DNA of 34,666 bases from positions 1 to 34,666 of IMG/VR virus record IMGVR_UViG_3300045996_000470; one strand, written 5' to 3'. Numbering within the stretch: position 1 is the stretch's first letter; each line of letters begins with the position of its first letter. Positions 2 through 29,384 of the stretch are shown here, piece by piece. The position numbers were made by a program, and so were the translations under genes. This stretch comes from a virus. The notes under the pieces are model-generated. The model saw nothing but the letters and a program-made list of their open reading frames with translations. It made no database searches and had not been told where the DNA came from.

Positions 2-106
2 TTCATCCGAGAAAACTGTGTCTTAAATCCGGTAGAAATGGCTTATAAGTGCAAAGAATGCGGAAAAGAACATGACCTAGAGGTCGAAGTAAATAAGGGA
101 GACTAA
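2..106 (+). CDS. C-terminal end of a small zinc-ribbon-like protein (partial)
   Basis: An open frame enters from the left edge and stops at TAA 104-106. The visible 34 residues contain one Cys-x-x-Cys pair (CKECGK), the kind of knuckle found in small zinc-binding phage proteins. The partner cysteines, if any, lie outside the window. An internal ATG at 38 could give a 22-residue product, but its start region has no clear Shine-Dalgarno site, so a longer gene is more likely. The next gene begins 2 nt after the stop, so they are probably co-transcribed. Function unknown. Confidence 0.5.
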   Translation, partial: FIRENCVLNPVEMAYKCKECGKEHDLEVEVNKGD

Positions 107-8401: not shown

Positions 8402-8779
8402 ATGAGTGACTTCGAAGCCCTATTAAATGCCGAGATAGTAGAAGCGGGTAGAGTTCCTGATATACGGGTAGTCTCTAGGGCAAGAAGAATTGGTGAAATC
8501 CTTGAAGAGCATTATCCTGACAGGAACACTATGACTCCTTCTGTGTCTCCAAGTGATGATATCATTATCTTTACGGGAGAAATCACAGACGATAGTGGGT
8601 TTAAATTAACTGTTCTCATTAAAGAGGACGACCAGAAAGTGGAAGAGCAATTGATTGTCTGGCACAGCGCAGACAATGTTTTTATAAACATTAAGGGAAC
8701 TCTAGCCGTCAAAGATTTAGAATATGCCCTGAATAGGGATAAAGAATATGCCTATTTGGACGAGCCTATTGAAGATTAG
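8402..8779 (+). CDS. Hypothetical protein, 125 aa
   Basis: The ATG lies 8 nt after the tRNA-Gly CCA with no Shine-Dalgarno site, so tRNA 3' processing would leave a nearly leaderless mRNA. The N-terminal half is helical (RVVSRARRIGEILEEHYP), followed by strands (DDIIIFTGEITDDSGFKLTVLI). It resembles many small acidic phage accessory proteins and no specific family. It ends in TAG; because this phage encodes an amber-suppressor tRNA, note that readthrough would be in frame with the next ATG at 8789. Confidence 0.65.
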   Translation: MSDFEALLNAEIVEAGRVPDIRVVSRARRIGEILEEHYPDRNTMTPSVSPSDDIIIFTGEITDDSGFKLTVLIKEDDQKVEEQLIVWHSADNVFINIKGTLAVKDLEYALNRDKEYAYLDEPIED

Positions 8780-9099: not shown

Positions 9100-9188
9100 G
9101 CAGGTGCGGACATTGGAAGAGTCAGCTAGTCTTCGAAACTAGTACCGTACATAGATACGTGGGGGTTCGAATCCCTCCACCTGCACCA
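9100..9188 (+). tRNA. tRNA-Arg(TCG) with long variable arm
   Basis: Acceptor GCAGGTG/CACCTGC is perfect, D-stem GAC/GTC with GG in the loop, anticodon stem CTAGT/ACTAG with loop CTTCGAA (TCG), T-loop TTCGAAT, encoded CCA. The variable region is 18 nt and folds as CGTA-CATAGA-TACG, a class II arm not expected on an Arg tRNA. It could derive from a Ser or Leu tRNA, so charging is uncertain. It starts 5 nt after the previous stop codon. Confidence 0.8.
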
Positions 9189-9380: not shown

Positions 9381-9469
9381 GCTCGTGTAGTTTAGATGGA
9401 GAAAATACACCGCTACGAACGGTGAGAGAGCGAAAGCCGTCGCAGGTTCGAGTCCTGCCACGAGTGCCA
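9381..9469 (+). tRNA. tRNA-Arg(ACG) with long variable arm
   Basis: Acceptor GCTCGTG/CACGAGT (one G-T), D-stem GTTT/AAAT, anticodon stem CACCG/CGGTG with loop CTACGAA, T-stem GCAGG/CCTGC with loop TTCGAGT, CCA encoded. The variable region is 17 nt and contains GC-GAAA-GC, a tetraloop-capped arm unusual for Arg. The A34 anticodon would be edited to inosine if TadA acts on it. Confidence 0.85.
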
Positions 9470-9751: not shown

Positions 9752-9830
9752 GCTCCTGTACCGGAACACTTTCCTAAAGTGTACAACCGTAATCGGAAGT
9801 ATGTGGGTTCGAGTCCCATCAGGAGTTCCA
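9752..9830 (+). tRNA. tRNA-Arg(CCT) lacking a D-arm
   Basis: Acceptor GCTCCTG/CAGGAGT, anticodon stem ACACT/AGTGT with loop TTCCTAA (CCT), T-stem GTGGG/CCCAT with loop TTCGAGT, discriminator T, CCA. Only 7 nt (TACCGGA) join the acceptor to the anticodon stem, so no D-arm can form. The variable region is 20 nt with a CCG-TAAT-CGG hairpin. It starts immediately after the lipoprotein stop codon. Confidence 0.75.
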
Positions 9831-10443: not shown

Positions 10444-11865
10444 ATGAAAAGACTAGTATCTATAGCACTTCTATTGATGTGTGCAGCAGTCTTCGTTACT
10501 GCCCAACCTAAGAAAAACTGGGAACCAGTTCCCGATTCCTACATCGTCGTAATCAAGAAAGACAGAGATTTAAAGAAAAACTTTGACAGAGGAAAAGGAA
10601 GACAAAAGAAAATACTTGCCCACTCCGTCCACGGTTATCTAGTCAAAATGTCTAAGGAAGAATTAGAAGAAACTAGAAAGAATCCAGATGTAGCGTTTAT
10701 TGAAGTAGATAGACATATTGCCCCTAATCAGACAGCCCCTATTTGGAATCTAGATAGAATTGACCAAGTAAACCTTCCTTTAGACGGTGTATTTAATTCT
10801 GTTAGGGACGGTAGAGGCGTTTCTGTGTATGTTATAGACTCAGGAATTAATTACTCCCACGTAGATTTTGAGGGTCGTGCATCTTTTGGTATGGATGCTA
10901 TGGGAGAAGATGGCGGAGATTGTCACGGACACGGTACTCACGTTGCAGGCACAATAGGTTCAGCGACTTACGGAGTTGCAAAGAAGGTCGATATTTATTC
11001 TACGAGAATTGCGGGGTGTGACGGGTTTTCTTATGTTTCCAGTTTATTACAAGCTGTAGACTGGATTAACGCTAACCACAAAAAACCTGCTGTAGCAAAC
11101 CTCAGTTATGGATTATCAGGAATCTCTCAAACCCTAACTCTAGCATTTGAAAGGGGGTATGACTACGGAGTAATTTATGTAGTCGCTGCTGGTAATTTGA
11201 ATAGAGATTCTTGTACATACAGTCCCTCTAATGTGCTAAAAAACATAGTAGTTGGCGCCTCTGCTTCCACCTCTACGGATGATTATAGAGCCGGATTTTC
11301 TAATTGGGGAGCTTGTGTAGATATTTTTGCTCCGGGCACTAACATTCTTTCTACTTACATTGGAAGCGATACTGCTGTGAGGGCTATGAACGGTACATCT
11401 ATGGCATCTCCAATGGTTGCAGGAGCAGTAGCCGCTCATTTAGGTATTCGTCCCTTAGATTCTCCAGACTTGGCGCAGAGCGTACTTATGTCTGAGTCTA
11501 GTAAAGACTTGTTAATAAATGTTCCGGCAGGAACATACAACAGATTTCTTTATACGGGGTACGGCATTCATCCAACTGAAAATTATGAAGTATGCGGTGA
11601 CACTAAGGAAAATGAAACTATTTTATTGGGAGAAACTAAAGAAGTAGCTTTTCTGGATGTGCGTGGGAATAGGACACTGACAGCTTCAGTTAGTCCTCAA
11701 TTAGGGTTGGGCGTCTTAATCCATTTGGAATCCTTAAAGGGAAGCAACTGGACTGCTGTTACCTCAGAGTCAACGAGTGTAACTCATACAGTAAAAAGAG
11801 GAAGGCACCGTTGGATGGCACGAAGTACATATGGAAGTGGTGCATTCAACTTCTGCCACAATTAA
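10444..11865 (+). CDS. Secreted subtilisin/proteinase K-like protease, 473 aa
   Basis: A signal peptide (about 1-20, ending VTAQ) precedes an inhibitor I9 propeptide (about 30-92, DSYIVVIKKD...HGYLVKMS...VAFIEVDR). The S8 catalytic domain (about 100-370) has Asp132 in VIDSGIN, His163 in HGHGTHVAG, oxyanion Asn251 in AAGN and Ser319 in NGTSMASPMVAG. A C-terminal region of about 95 residues is predicted beta-rich. The order and spacing match the proteinase K/aqualysin group, whose members are exported and self-processed. An exported endopeptidase is rare in phages; it could degrade host surface or competitor proteins or mature virion parts. The ATG is 7 nt after the tRNA CCA without a Shine-Dalgarno site. 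Confidence 0.93.
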   Translation: MKRLVSIALLLMCAAVFVTAQPKKNWEPVPDSYIVVIKKDRDLKKNFDRGKGRQKKILAHSVHGYLVKMSKEELEETRKNPDVAFIEVDRHIAPNQTAPIWNLDRIDQVNLPLDGVFNSVRDGRGVSVYVIDSGINYSHVDFEGRASFGMDAMGEDGGDCHGHGTHVAGTIGSATYGVAKKVDIYSTRIAGCDGFSYVSSLLQAVDWINANHKKPAVANLSYGLSGISQTLTLAFERGYDYGVIYVVAAGNLNRDSCTYSPSNVLKNIVVGASASTSTDDYRAGFSNWGACVDIFAPGTNILSTYIGSDTAVRAMNGTSMASPMVAGAVAAHLGIRPLDSPDLAQSVLMSESSKDLLINVPAGTYNRFLYTGYGIHPTENYEVCGDTKENETILLGETKEVAFLDVRGNRTLTASVSPQLGLGVLIHLESLKGSNWTAVTSESTSVTHTVKRGRHRWMARSTYGSGAFNFCHN

Positions 11866-14143: not shown

Positions 14144-14172
14144 TTGACAGAATTCCTTTACTGTGCTATCCT
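14144..14172 (+). promoter_or_regulatory. Promoter for tRNA-Ile/tRNA-Thr
   Basis: TTGACA 14144-14149, 17-bp spacer, TATCCT 14167-14172; expected start at about 14179, 6 nt before tRNA-Ile. Confidence 0.65.
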
Positions 14173-14184
14173 TCAGAATTCAAT

Positions 14185-14259
14185 GCATAGTTAGCTTAGT
14201 GGGAAAGCCCAGAGCTGATAACTCTGTGAGACTAGGTTCGATTCCTAGGCTATGCACCA
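14185..14259 (+). tRNA. tRNA-Ile(GAT)
   Basis: Canonical: acceptor GCATAGT/GCTATGC, D-stem GCTT/AAGC with GG, anticodon loop CTGATAA on CAGAG/CTCTG, 5-nt variable region, T-stem CTAGG/CCTAG with loop TTCGATT, discriminator A, CCA. Confidence 0.92.
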
Positions 14260-14264
14260 ATTAA

Positions 14265-14334
14265 GCCTATGGTACTGGGTACGTAGAAGTTTCGTAAACT
14301 TCAAACCGGAGTTCGACTCTCCGTGTAGGCTCCA
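14265..14334 (+). tRNA. tRNA-Thr(CGT) with miniature D-arm
   Basis: Acceptor GCCTATG/TGTAGGC, anticodon stem GAAGT/ACTTC with loop TTCGTAA, T-stem CGGAG/CTCCG with loop TTCGACT, CCA. The D-region is only 14 nt and folds as GTAC-TGG-GTAC. Total 70 nt. Three Thr isoacceptors (GGT, CGT, TGT) occur in this window. Confidence 0.85.
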
Positions 14335-21938: not shown

Positions 21939-22025
21939 GCCTGTGTTCCTCGTGTTGGCTAGAGGCACTGTCTTGTAAGCAGTCGAGCGAAAGCGTCGGG
22001 GGTTCGATTCCCCTCTCAGGCTCCA
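21939..22025 (+). tRNA. tRNA-Thr(TGT) with GAAA-capped variable arm
   Basis: Acceptor GCCTGTG/CTCAGGC with a T-T mismatch at pair 6 (as in tRNA-Thr(GGT)), D-stem CCTC/GAGG with GG in the loop, anticodon loop CTTGTAA on ACTGT/GCAGT, T-loop TTCGATT, CCA. The 14-nt variable region contains GC-GAAA-GC, not normal for Thr. Confidence 0.88.
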
Positions 22026-24701: not shown

Positions 24702-24786
24702 GCCCTTATGTGGAGAGTGGGATTCCAGCGGTCTTTTAAACCGATGCCATAAGGCGGGCGAGGTTCGATTCCTCGTGGGGGCACCA
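24702..24786 (+). tRNA. tRNA-Lys(TTT) with long variable arm
   Basis: Acceptor GCCCTTA/TGGGGGC, D-stem TGGA/TCCA with GG, anticodon loop CTTTTAA on a 4-bp CGGT/ACCG stem, T-stem CGAGG/CCTCG with loop TTCGATT, CCA. The 14-nt variable region folds as GCC-ATAA-GGC. Confidence 0.88.
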
Positions 24787-25429: not shown

Positions 25430-25513
25430 ACTAGCGTGACAGATGGGGATGTAGACAGCCGATTACTGTCGTTCGAAAGAGCTATGAGAGTTCGAATCTC
25501 TCCGCTAGTACCA
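25430..25513 (+). tRNA. tRNA-Ile(GAT), second copy, with C33 and GAAA-capped arm
   Basis: Acceptor ACTAGCG/CGCTAGT is perfect, D-stem ACA/TGT with GG, anticodon stem GACAG/CTGTC, loop CCGATTA: anticodon GAT preceded by C instead of the near-universal T33. The 15-nt variable region folds as GTTC-GAAA-GAGC. T-loop TTCGAAT, CCA. If the reading register were shifted, CGA (Ser) would fit a class II tRNA, so identity is uncertain. Confidence 0.75.
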
Positions 25514-25936: not shown

Positions 25937-26023
25937 GGGGGTATGTGGAGAGTGGGATTCCTGCTGGCTCTTAACCAGACAAGCGAAAGCTTAGACAAGG
26001 TTCGATTCCTTGTGCCCCTACCA
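25937..26023 (+). tRNA. tRNA-Lys(CTT) with GAAA-capped variable arm
   Basis: Acceptor GGGGGTA/TGCCCCT, D-stem TGGA/TCCT, the same D-loop GAGTGGGAT as tRNA-Lys(TTT), anticodon loop CTCTTAA on CTGG/CCAG, variable arm AAGC-GAAA-GCTT, T-loop TTCGATT, CCA. Clearly related to the tRNA at 24702. Confidence 0.9.
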
Positions 26024-26252: not shown

Positions 26253-27122
26253 ATGGCTAATGGAGTAAAGAAACAGTCCGTGTGTTGGCAGTATGAGATG
26301 AGGACTGCTAATTTAAAAGAGGATTTGAAAGCAGCGGGGTTTACAAAGAAATATGTGGATGGGCTTACTTGCAGCGATTTTACTTTTAGAATTGTTACAG
26401 ATATACAAGAGAGAAGGAAACTCATTGATTTCATAAAGAGGCACGAGTGGCTTGGAACGATATCCCAATACCCCACTCACTACTTCGGGTGCTATCATAA
26501 AGGAGTGTTGGCAGGAGCTTTAATCCTGAATTTGCCCAACGCCTTTACTAAGATGTTGGGAGAAGAAACCCCGGAACTTGAGAGACTTATAAGTCGTGGT
26601 GCTTGCATTAGTTGGTCGCCTAAAGGTTTAGCCTCCAAGTTCATTATGTGGACTATCCGCTATATGGTGCAGAACACTAGGTATAGATTGTTCTCCGCAT
26701 ACAGTGATGTAGAAGCAGGAGAATTGGGAACTATCTATCAAGCCTGTGGTTTCTATTATATGGGGCAGAACGCAGGCACGACAACTCGCTATATCAATCC
26801 CTACACCGGTAAGGAAGTTAGCGATAGATTCTTTAGGCAGAGAGCGACTTATAAGAAGTATGCTAAAGAATTAAAAATAGAGTGGCAGAAAGATTGGACT
26901 GTAAAGACGGGGATGAACTGGAAAGCAATCCCCACAAAGGTTGCTGACAGGTTGAGAGCCTACAGTAGAGAGCAACAAAAAGCTCAAACACCAATCATTA
27001 AACCCAAAAAACACAAGTACGTTTATGTGCTTGGAAGGGACAAAAGAGAGACAAGGGAATTAAGGAAAAGATTCCTAGCAAATAACAAAACATTCAATTA
27101 TCCAAAAAAACGAGGAATATAA
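26253..27122 (+). CDS. Mom-like GNAT DNA-modification protein, 289 aa
   Basis: The central region follows the pattern of Mu Mom and related phage GNAT proteins: ERRKLIDFIKRHEWLGTI, THYFGCYHKGVLAGALIL, LERLISRGACISWSPKGLASKFIMWTIRYM, LFSAYSDVEAGELGTIYQACGFYYMGQ. In Mu, Mom converts adenine in DNA to a methylcarbamoyl derivative that blocks host restriction. A basic C-terminal tail (about 230-289) could bind DNA. The TAATG overlap with a dNMP kinase supports a DNA-base-modification operon. Alternative: another GNAT acting on nucleotides or proteins. Motif match by eye only. Confidence 0.65.
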   Translation: MANGVKKQSVCWQYEMRTANLKEDLKAAGFTKKYVDGLTCSDFTFRIVTDIQERRKLIDFIKRHEWLGTISQYPTHYFGCYHKGVLAGALILNLPNAFTKMLGEETPELERLISRGACISWSPKGLASKFIMWTIRYMVQNTRYRLFSAYSDVEAGELGTIYQACGFYYMGQNAGTTTRYINPYTGKEVSDRFFRQRATYKKYAKELKIEWQKDWTVKTGMNWKAIPTKVADRLRAYSREQQKAQTPIIKPKKHKYVYVLGRDKRETRELRKRFLANNKTFNYPKKRGI

Positions 27123-27871
27123 TGAATTTAAAACAATACAGCAAGACTAAGGATTGCTACCGAAAACGTGGTGGATTTCTTATCGGCTTAAACGGTGTAG
27201 CTCAATCTGGAAAAGATAGTGTAGGACGTATTTTAGTACAGAGTCATGGATTTGAAAGACTTGCGTTTGCAGACGCTTTAAGGAAAGGACTCTACGACTT
27301 TAATCCTATTGTAGATATTAGGGTAGAACTAGAGCATGAAACCTTTTGGGAATGGCTTAGAGGTAAATCTGGTGGGTATACTACTAGAATTGTTAGGCTT
27401 AGGGAGTTAGTAGACGCGATAGGCTGGGATGAAGCTAAGGTTAAATACGATGAAATCCGGGTTGGGATGCAGAAGTATGGTACTGAAGCGGGGAGAAATA
27501 TTCATGGAGACGATTGCTGGATAAACATCATTAAGAGACAAATTGAGAATACTTCAGGCAAGAGTTATGTCATTACTGACATGAGGTTTGAAAACGAATT
27601 GGAAGAAGTTGAGAAGCTGGGCGGGCTGTTGGTACAAGTCCAAAGAGAAGGAGTCACTTCAGTTAATAATCATATTTCGGACAAGGTTTTGGATGAGAAT
27701 AGGTTTCACGCTATCATAGAGAATAACGGCACTCTGGGTGATTTAGAAGATAAGGTGGGAAGGCTGCTGAATGACCTTAACCCGTTTAAGAATACAGCAG
27801 GAATTTCTTCCTTTTCCAAATTTATAGAGAACAAAATCCCGCAAAAGCCCTTGACAAAGTACGGATATTAG
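27122..27871 (+). CDS. Deoxynucleoside monophosphate kinase, 249 aa
   Basis: The P-loop GLNGVAQSGKDS (22-33) is followed by RLAFADALRKGLYDFNP, IGWDEAKVKYDEIRVGMQKYGTEAGRN, DCWI, YVITDMRFENELEEVEKLGGLLVQV and a terminal 'FHAIIENNGTLGDLEDKV', all matching phage dNMP kinases of the T4 gp1 type. These phosphorylate dNMPs, including modified ones in some phages, to feed replication. Length fits. It is cotranscribed with the Mom-like gene. Ends in TAG, with a promoter for the amber-suppressor tRNA overlapping the end. Confidence 0.88.
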   Translation: MNLKQYSKTKDCYRKRGGFLIGLNGVAQSGKDSVGRILVQSHGFERLAFADALRKGLYDFNPIVDIRVELEHETFWEWLRGKSGGYTTRIVRLRELVDAIGWDEAKVKYDEIRVGMQKYGTEAGRNIHGDDCWINIIKRQIENTSGKSYVITDMRFENELEEVEKLGGLLVQVQREGVTSVNNHISDKVLDENRFHAIIENNGTLGDLEDKVGRLLNDLNPFKNTAGISSFSKFIENKIPQKPLTKYGY

Positions 27872-27879
27872 TATAATAT
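27851..27879 (+). promoter_or_regulatory. Promoter of the suppressor tRNA
   Basis: TTGACA 27851-27856 within the kinase gene, 17-bp spacer, TAATAT 27874-27879 (or TATAAT 27872-27877 at 15 bp); tRNA starts 10 nt later. Confidence 0.65.
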
Positions 27880-27888
27880 ATAGGATAA

Positions 27889-27958
27889 GCGCGGTCTAGG
27901 GTAGGCGATGGGTCTCTAAAACCCTGTAGCGAGGATTCGAACTCCTCATCGCGCGCCA
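27889..27958 (+). tRNA. Amber-suppressor tRNA, anticodon CTA
   Basis: Acceptor GCGCGGT/ATCGCGC, anticodon stem GGGT/ACCC (plus a mismatched pair) with loop CTCTAAA: T33, anticodon CTA, A37, A38. T-stem GAGGA/TCCTC with loop TTCGAAC, discriminator G, CCA. The D-region is short (CTA-GGG-TAG type) with GG. It would decode UAG. The charging amino acid cannot be read from the sequence. It ends 6 nt before the next ATG. Confidence 0.82.
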
Positions 27959-27964
27959 ACATTT

Positions 27965-28180
27965 ATGGATAATAGAGCAAAGAAATTAGAAGAGTTGGAA
28001 GCCCTCCAAAGACTTCAGAACGAAGCGGAACTACAAAGTAGGATTGACTGGCTAGAGACCACAGTGTCCTCCTTAGTTACCGAAGTAACCGAACTTAAAA
28101 GAAATCTCACAGGACTTCAGATGGAGTTTAACAGAGACCACACAAGACTAGGAGCGCAAGATGCTCCCTACAGAAAATAA
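27965..28180 (+). CDS. Coiled-coil protein, 71 aa
   Basis: Start 6 nt after the suppressor tRNA, no Shine-Dalgarno site. Residues 5-58 are a near-perfect heptad coil (LEELEALQRLQNEAELQSRIDWLETTVSSLVTEVTEL), followed by a short polar tail. Such small coiled coils in phages are often virion or scaffold adaptors. Function unknown. Confidence 0.65.
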   Translation: MDNRAKKLEELEALQRLQNEAELQSRIDWLETTVSSLVTEVTELKRNLTGLQMEFNRDHTRLGAQDAPYRK

Positions 28181-28721: not shown

Positions 28722-28748
28722 AAAAGGCTGAGGGCTTTGTATTTCTAT

Positions 28749-29384
28749 ATGTTGATTTATCGAATCACTAATAAGGTCAATGATAAACGCTACATAGGAC
28801 AGACTATTCAATCCTTACAGAGAAGGTTTAATCAACACTGTAAAGGAAAATCTGTACTGAGTAGCGCCATACGTAAGTACGGGAAGGATAATTTTATCGT
28901 AGAAGAGTTAGCCATAGCTAAGTCTTTAGAAGAATTGAACGGGCTGGAAAAACAATACATCATAGAGAATAATTGTATTGCTCCTTTGGGGTATAACCTA
29001 CAAAAAGGCGGTAACACGGCTAAAGCTACGGAAAATACTAAGAAGAAGCTGAGTGCATCCATTAAGGCTATGTGGAAGGATAAGGATTATAGAAACAAAA
29101 TGTGTGAATCTATGAAATCTATTCAACACAGTGAACATAACAAAAACAGATTGAGAACTTTATTTGCAGGACACCAACACTCTCCCTCAAGTAAGCAAAA
29201 AATATCGCAAAAAGTTAGGGGAAGTGCCAATGCTAACTCCAAACTAAACGAATTAGACATTAAATTTATTAGACATTGGAAATCAGTTGGCGGCAGAAGT
29301 AAAGATATTTATACTTGTTTCTATATAAGTAAAAGTTTATTTCATGCTATTGTCAACAAAGAATGCTGGAGACACGTAGAATGA
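28749..29384 (+). CDS. GIY-YIG homing endonuclease (SegA-like), 211 aa
   Basis: The N-terminal domain begins MLIYRITNKVNDKRYIGQT (the GIY and YIG elements as LIY...YIG), followed by SLQRRFNQHCKGKS, the conserved R/H helix, and 'SLEELNGLEKQYI' with the catalytic Glu. The C-terminal half has NUMOD-type repeats (TKKKLSASIKAMW, KISQKVRGSANANSKL) that bind DNA in homing enzymes. ATG 28749 is chosen over a TTG at 28737. The stop overlaps the endolysin start (ATGA), typical of an inserted mobile nuclease gene. Confidence 0.9.
   Translation: MLIYRITNKVNDKRYIGQTIQSLQRRFNQHCKGKSVLSSAIRKYGKDNFIVEELAIAKSLEELNGLEKQYIIENNCIAPLGYNLQKGGNTAKATENTKKKLSASIKAMWKDKDYRNKMCESMKSIQHSEHNKNRLRTLFAGHQHSPSSKQKISQKVRGSANANSKLNELDIKFIRHWKSVGGRSKDIYTCFYISKSLFHAIVNKECWRHVE

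Follow-up and report, generated by a model that had tools for sequence, protein, structure and literature searches.

The window analysed here is a stretch of 34,666 bases (bases 1-34666 of a virus record that is 121,203 bases long and was read throughout), and it carries a tRNA gene with the anticodon CUA between a nucleotide kinase gene and a short open reading frame (ORF). The features at this locus are as follows:

27122..27871, + strand: deoxynucleoside monophosphate kinase gene (PHROG 139, Pfam DNMK)
27851..27879, + strand: sigma70-type promoter, TTGACA-17-TAATAT, identified by motif; it overlaps the end of the upstream gene, and the same family occurs 23 times in the genome
27889..27958, + strand: tRNA-Sup(CUA) gene with encoded CCA, from direct reading and covariance models
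27916..27918, + strand: anticodon CTA, reading UAG, from direct reading
27965..28180, + strand: coiled-coil-like ORF of 71 aa, its ATG 6 nt past the CCA of the tRNA

Read directly from its 5' end, the tRNA gene consists of GCGCGGT (27889-27895), the D-region CTAGGGTAGGCGA (27896-27908), TGGGT, the anticodon loop CTCTAAA (27914-27920), ACCCT, GTAGC, GAGGA-TTCGAAC-TCCTC, ATCGCGC, G73, and the CCA (27956-27958). The acceptor stem is paired at 7 of 7 positions, one of them G·U, and the T-stem at 5 of 5; the anticodon stem has four pairs, with a T·T mismatch at 27:43, and the D-region between the acceptor and anticodon stems measures 13 nt, within which CTA-GGG-TAG is a possible D-hairpin. The first-pass annotation had placed a phage-encoded amber suppressor tRNA here, and its presence is borne out by the 7-bp acceptor stem, the 5-bp T-stem, the GCCA end, and a score of 44.8 bits with a model of phage amber tRNAs; its reading of the CTCTAAA loop as anticodon CTA with T33 and a purine at 37 was confirmed directly, the purine being A37. 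ARAGORN did not call a tRNA at 27889-27958, and the Rfam RF00005 score was 25.3 bits, under the gathering cut-off of 29, both of which are explained by the 13-nt D-region and the four-pair anticodon stem. Although the Rfam gathering score is missed, the tRNA fold, CUA anticodon, T33, and purine 37 by which Sup-CTA tRNAs are recognized are all present. Judged on its sequence, this is a genuine but oddly shrunken tRNA gene, which should read UAG.

The proposal that the tRNA has its own promoter is also supported. The -35 box TTGACA (27851-27856) and the -10 box TAATAT, at 17 nt spacing, match the consensus at 10 of 12 positions, and an alternative, perfect TATAAT is found at 27872-27877 with a spacing of 15 nt. 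The -10 box ends 9 nt before the tRNA, so that the predicted transcript start lies a few nt 5' of it, and the TAG of the kinase gene falls within the promoter, past the end of the Pfam model. The genome contains 23 sites of the form TTGACA-16..18-TAnnnT, whereas 30 first-order Markov simulations gave 3.2 on average, which indicates that the promoter belongs to a real phage-wide family; among the 15 tRNA genes of the phage, only one more, tRNA-Ile at 14185, has a TTGACA promoter immediately 5' of it. At looser promoter sites (n=53), an ATG follows the -10 box by 5-8 nt in 30, which implies that transcripts without a leader are common in this phage, a trait that may hint at the host. Promoters of the leaderless type include those at 14144 and 27851 in the window and, on the minus strand of the record, at 73905, 75752, and 80567. 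The 71-aa ORF may share its transcript with the tRNA. Other genes of the window encode a Mom-like DNA-modification protein (26253-27122), a subtilase-family protease (10444-11865), and a GIY-YIG homing endonuclease (28737-29384).

UAG as a stop codon in the phage genome

The first-pass annotation had argued from TAG-ending genes that UAG is not fully recoded, and this stands: the six genes that it named (ends at 8779, 14142, 20987, 21571, 25934, and 27871) are all true ORF ends, TAG acts as a stop at the ends of conserved proteins, and coding density is standard. Among 152 selected ORFs of at least 90 aa, 20 end in TAG. When coding coverage was calculated as the genome fraction in ORFs of at least 100 aa, treating TAG as sense raised it from 0.796 to 0.838, as compared to 0.823 and 0.877 for TGA and TAA, respectively, used as control stops; the gain thus lies within the controls and is not the clear increase in density that marks code 15.

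In-frame continuation was found after 4 of 20 TAG codons versus 8 of 132 other stops (p = 0.054, raw), an excess attributable to neighboring genes, several of which have a promoter of their own or begin like a signal peptide, and the longest continuations past TAG are adjacent genes. Five TAG-joined frames were considered as readthrough fusions and none was supported, since no family match crosses the TAG in any of them within the 121,203-base record, nor does an in-frame TAG lie inside a conserved gene in these frames. In the clearest case, the ORF at 69558-69938 on the minus strand is joined to an RNA ligase gene: the upstream families stop at its TAG (phrog_8206 to position 149 of 151, phrog_18295 to 104 of 105) and the RNA ligase family starts right after it, so that unrelated families meet exactly there. 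The RNA ligase gene itself and a 544-aa gene at 119178 end in TAG near the ends of their families.

These results bear on true recoding, in which a set of late genes would use UAG for an amino acid in the manner of code-15 phages, and which had been raised as late-stage recoding of the kind seen in gut phages. It could be argued for from the low use of TAG at the ends of late structural genes (1 of 27), as well as from the Sup-CTA tRNAs that mark about half of code-15 phages (375/715; PMC11210395). The late structural genes are, however, not split by TAG, the coding gain does not exceed the controls, families end at TAG rather than spanning it, and neither a release factor nor a synthetase of the PylRS, Gln/Glu, or Trp/Tyr type was found in the phage record. 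True recoding within this record is already largely refuted, and we regard it as very improbable. Partial readthrough, the other use suggested for the tRNA, could still occur, but the genome gives no reason to invoke it and no target was found there. The phage keeps UAG as an ordinary stop, and the amber tRNA is therefore a structural oddity and not evidence of a changed code.

The same situation is encountered elsewhere. By a rough and local coding-gain test on 111 surveyed IMG/VR loci of at least 4 kb, a gain of the TAG-recoding type was seen in 17 among the matches listed, leaving about 94 (~85%) without local recoding, which suggests that phages more often carry an amber tRNA without recoding than with it. 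The present case is thus of an ordinary kind, and it is chiefly its shape that is unusual. As most phage amber tRNAs appear to lie in non-recoded regions, something other than a code switch has to account for their role. The gene could also be a relic of recoding or of host switching in the past, having once served a recoded ancestor, or could help in hosts or against mutations that cannot be seen from this record. Amber tRNAs are indeed widespread in phages, recoded or not, but no recoded relative was found and the promoter and CCA are intact, so that this origin appears improbable.

A reduced tRNA among other unusual tRNAs

An IMG/VR search with the pattern GGTCTCTAAAACC-N9..16-TTCGA returned at least 120 stretches (loci L089-L208), of which 107 fold as amber tRNAs among the matches listed. 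With a covariance model built from 64 others of this set, the window tRNA scored 44.8 bits (E 6e-12) and was the top match in the 121-kb genome. Among the matches listed, the D-region measures 17-24 nt in 101 of the 107 other amber tRNAs and 14-15 nt in 6, so that the 13 nt of the window tRNA are fewer than in any of them. Its 53:61 pair is A-T, versus G-C in 88 of 90 phage amber tRNAs; together, the short D-region and the A-T pair mean that folding and charging may be poor. The discriminator base, by contrast, is not unusual, given A in 65, G in 32, and T in 10 among the matches listed. A 27:43 mismatch occurs in 24 of 108 distinct phage amber tRNAs versus 53 of 505 other tRNAs of the same loci, among the matches listed, an excess (odds ratio 2.4, p=0.002) calculated with statistics that ignore relatedness. 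Short D-regions, of 15 and 14 nt, also mark two further kinds of phage amber tRNA, at loci L102, L103, L119, L146, and L174 and at locus L120. No close relative of the window tRNA was recovered by an exact-core search of IMG/VR; searches with the kinase and terminase proteins gave distant phage relatives or none, blastn against cultured phages gave chance matches only, and a local tblastn of the phage proteins against the surveyed loci gave no syntenic relative.

The phage itself encodes 15 tRNA genes between 9100 and 27958, all on the + strand with encoded CCA, which are interspersed with protein genes and stand alone except for one pair. Two of them, and a set of genes outside the window (positions of the record), are as follows:

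9752..9830, + strand: tRNA-Arg(CCT), D-region of about 7 nt, long variable arm, missed by ARAGORN
14265..14334, + strand: tRNA-Thr(CGT), 14-nt D-region, GTAC-TGG-GTAC, missed by ARAGORN, a parallel for the reduced D-arm
64466-65686, 68415-69545, 72313-73341, 78339-79241, 84550-85203, - strand: tRNA nucleotidyltransferase, three RNA ligases, and polynucleotide kinase

Taken together, the phage's tRNAs are more unusual than the amber tRNA alone. Long, class-II-like variable arms of 14-18 nt are carried by the tRNAs at 9100-9188, 9381-9469, 21939-22025, 24702-24786, and 25937-26023, whose anticodons are those of Arg (TCG, ACG), Thr (TGT), and Lys (TTT, CTT), isotypes that do not usually have such arms; at 27:43, the two Lys tRNAs show a G·A mismatch. 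A tRNA-like gene at 25430-25513 also has a long variable arm, and its best-paired anticodon loop, CCGATTA, has C and not T at position 33. Several tRNAs have an ATG within about 10 nt of their CCA, as if tRNA excision set mRNA 5' ends, and the five minus-strand genes resemble a tRNA-repair set.

The amber gene might instead be degenerate or non-translating, that is, a decaying copy, a tRNA-like processing mark, a nuclease decoy, or a leader of the 71-aa ORF. A score under the Rfam cut-off, the ARAGORN miss, the minimal D-region, the T·T in the anticodon stem, and the loss of G53:C61 are what a degenerate copy could look like, and a non-translating role is consistent with the ATG 6 nt past the CCA, given that many of the phage's genes appear to be leaderless, and with the tRNA-repair-type enzymes that the phage encodes. 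The perfect acceptor and T-stem pairing, an anticodon loop ideal for decoding, and the intact promoter nevertheless argue against decay, which would not keep them, and two more tRNAs of the same phage are similarly reduced. We consider this explanation fairly unlikely. A link to tRNA-nuclease conflict is plausible given the polynucleotide kinase, RNA ligases, and tRNA nucleotidyltransferase, phage tRNAs having been proposed to evade anticodon nucleases (PMC10264068).

The CTCTAAA loop, G1:C72, G73, small D-region, and CUA anticodon also point to tRNAPyl. A PylRS scan of bacterial and archaeal genomes gave 80 loci, within which 61 highly uniform tRNAPyl genes adjoin bacterial pylS. Neither the D-stem nor the anticodon stem, variable loop, or T-loop of the bacterial tRNAPyl matches that of the window tRNA, and their GATC-type D-stem, short variable loop, and TGNRAC-type T-loop, as seen in these 61 genes, are absent from it. 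On a bacterial tRNAPyl model, the window tRNA scored 26.5 bits, ordinary phage amber tRNAs 26-32, and two true members 91 and 95; a bacterial-type tRNAPyl was thereby ruled out. More generally, a viral tRNAPyl inserting pyrrolysine at UAG could draw on the interrupted anticodon stem and canonical T-loop, which are reminiscent of the M. alvus type (features in PMC10810272), but the window tRNA scores like an ordinary phage amber tRNA and the phage has no PylS, the TIGR02367 (PylRS) family being absent from its record. Such a function is extremely improbable; the archaeal PylSn-lacking tRNAPyl type, set against the window tRNA by its published description (PMC10810272), likewise has a low probability.

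Proposed function and comparison with known systems

On balance, we lean towards a functional but structurally reduced phage amber suppressor tRNA, with UAG retained as a stop codon in the phage. At the level of sequence, it has a CUA anticodon, a minimal D-region, an unpinned 27:43 position, an encoded CCA, and a dedicated promoter. The full pairing of acceptor and T-stem, T33 and A37, the CCA, the 44.8-bit score, and a promoter of a phage-wide family speak for function; the shortest D-region, the A-T 53:61 pair, G1:C72, and the failure to find a readthrough target or a close relative speak against it. A short transcript would start a few nt before the tRNA, host RNase P would trim its 5' end, and the CCA is already encoded. 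The CUA anticodon, U35, and G73 are identity elements favoring GlnRS, and tRNA-Gln usually has U1:A72, where the window tRNA has G1:C72. A host synthetase would then charge the tRNA, GlnRS being the likeliest on account of C34/U35/G73 and of the UAG-to-Gln precedent in gut phages, which was demonstrated by proteomics in crAss-like phages (PMC9523058); the predicted amino acid is most likely glutamine. By competing with RF1, the charged tRNA would allow limited UAG readthrough during infection and leave the genome unrecoded, and its effect would most likely be modest, although the four-pair anticodon stem could plausibly raise suppression.

Charging and activity of this tRNA, if real, would show with how little D-arm a bacterial-type tRNA can do, and that phage tRNAs are undercounted by standard tools. 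The wider proposal of a class of functional minimal-D-arm phage tRNAs missed by standard finders, with non-recoding amber suppressors that would adjust, in infected cells, how a few genes of phage or host terminate at UAG, aided by four-pair stems, has a rather small probability.

The 27:43 mismatch is shared with the four-bp anticodon-stem tRNAs of PMC13092985, where UAG was reportedly read through better in a bacterial system when tRNA-Thr(CUA) had a four-pair stem; the main subject of that paper is tRNA-Trp(CCA) and UGA in bacteria, and phage are unmentioned in its text. The Sup-CTA tRNAs of code-15 phages (crAss-like, Lak, and phAss-1) are phage-encoded with a CUA anticodon, as here, but their genomes are TAG-recoded whereas that of the window phage is not. 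The environmental phage amber tRNAs (L089-L208) share the CTCTAAA loop, the GGT/ACC stem core, and the TTCGA T-loop with the window tRNA and, like it, lie mostly in non-recoded loci, the window tRNA differing from them in its 13-nt D-region and the A-T pair at 53:61.
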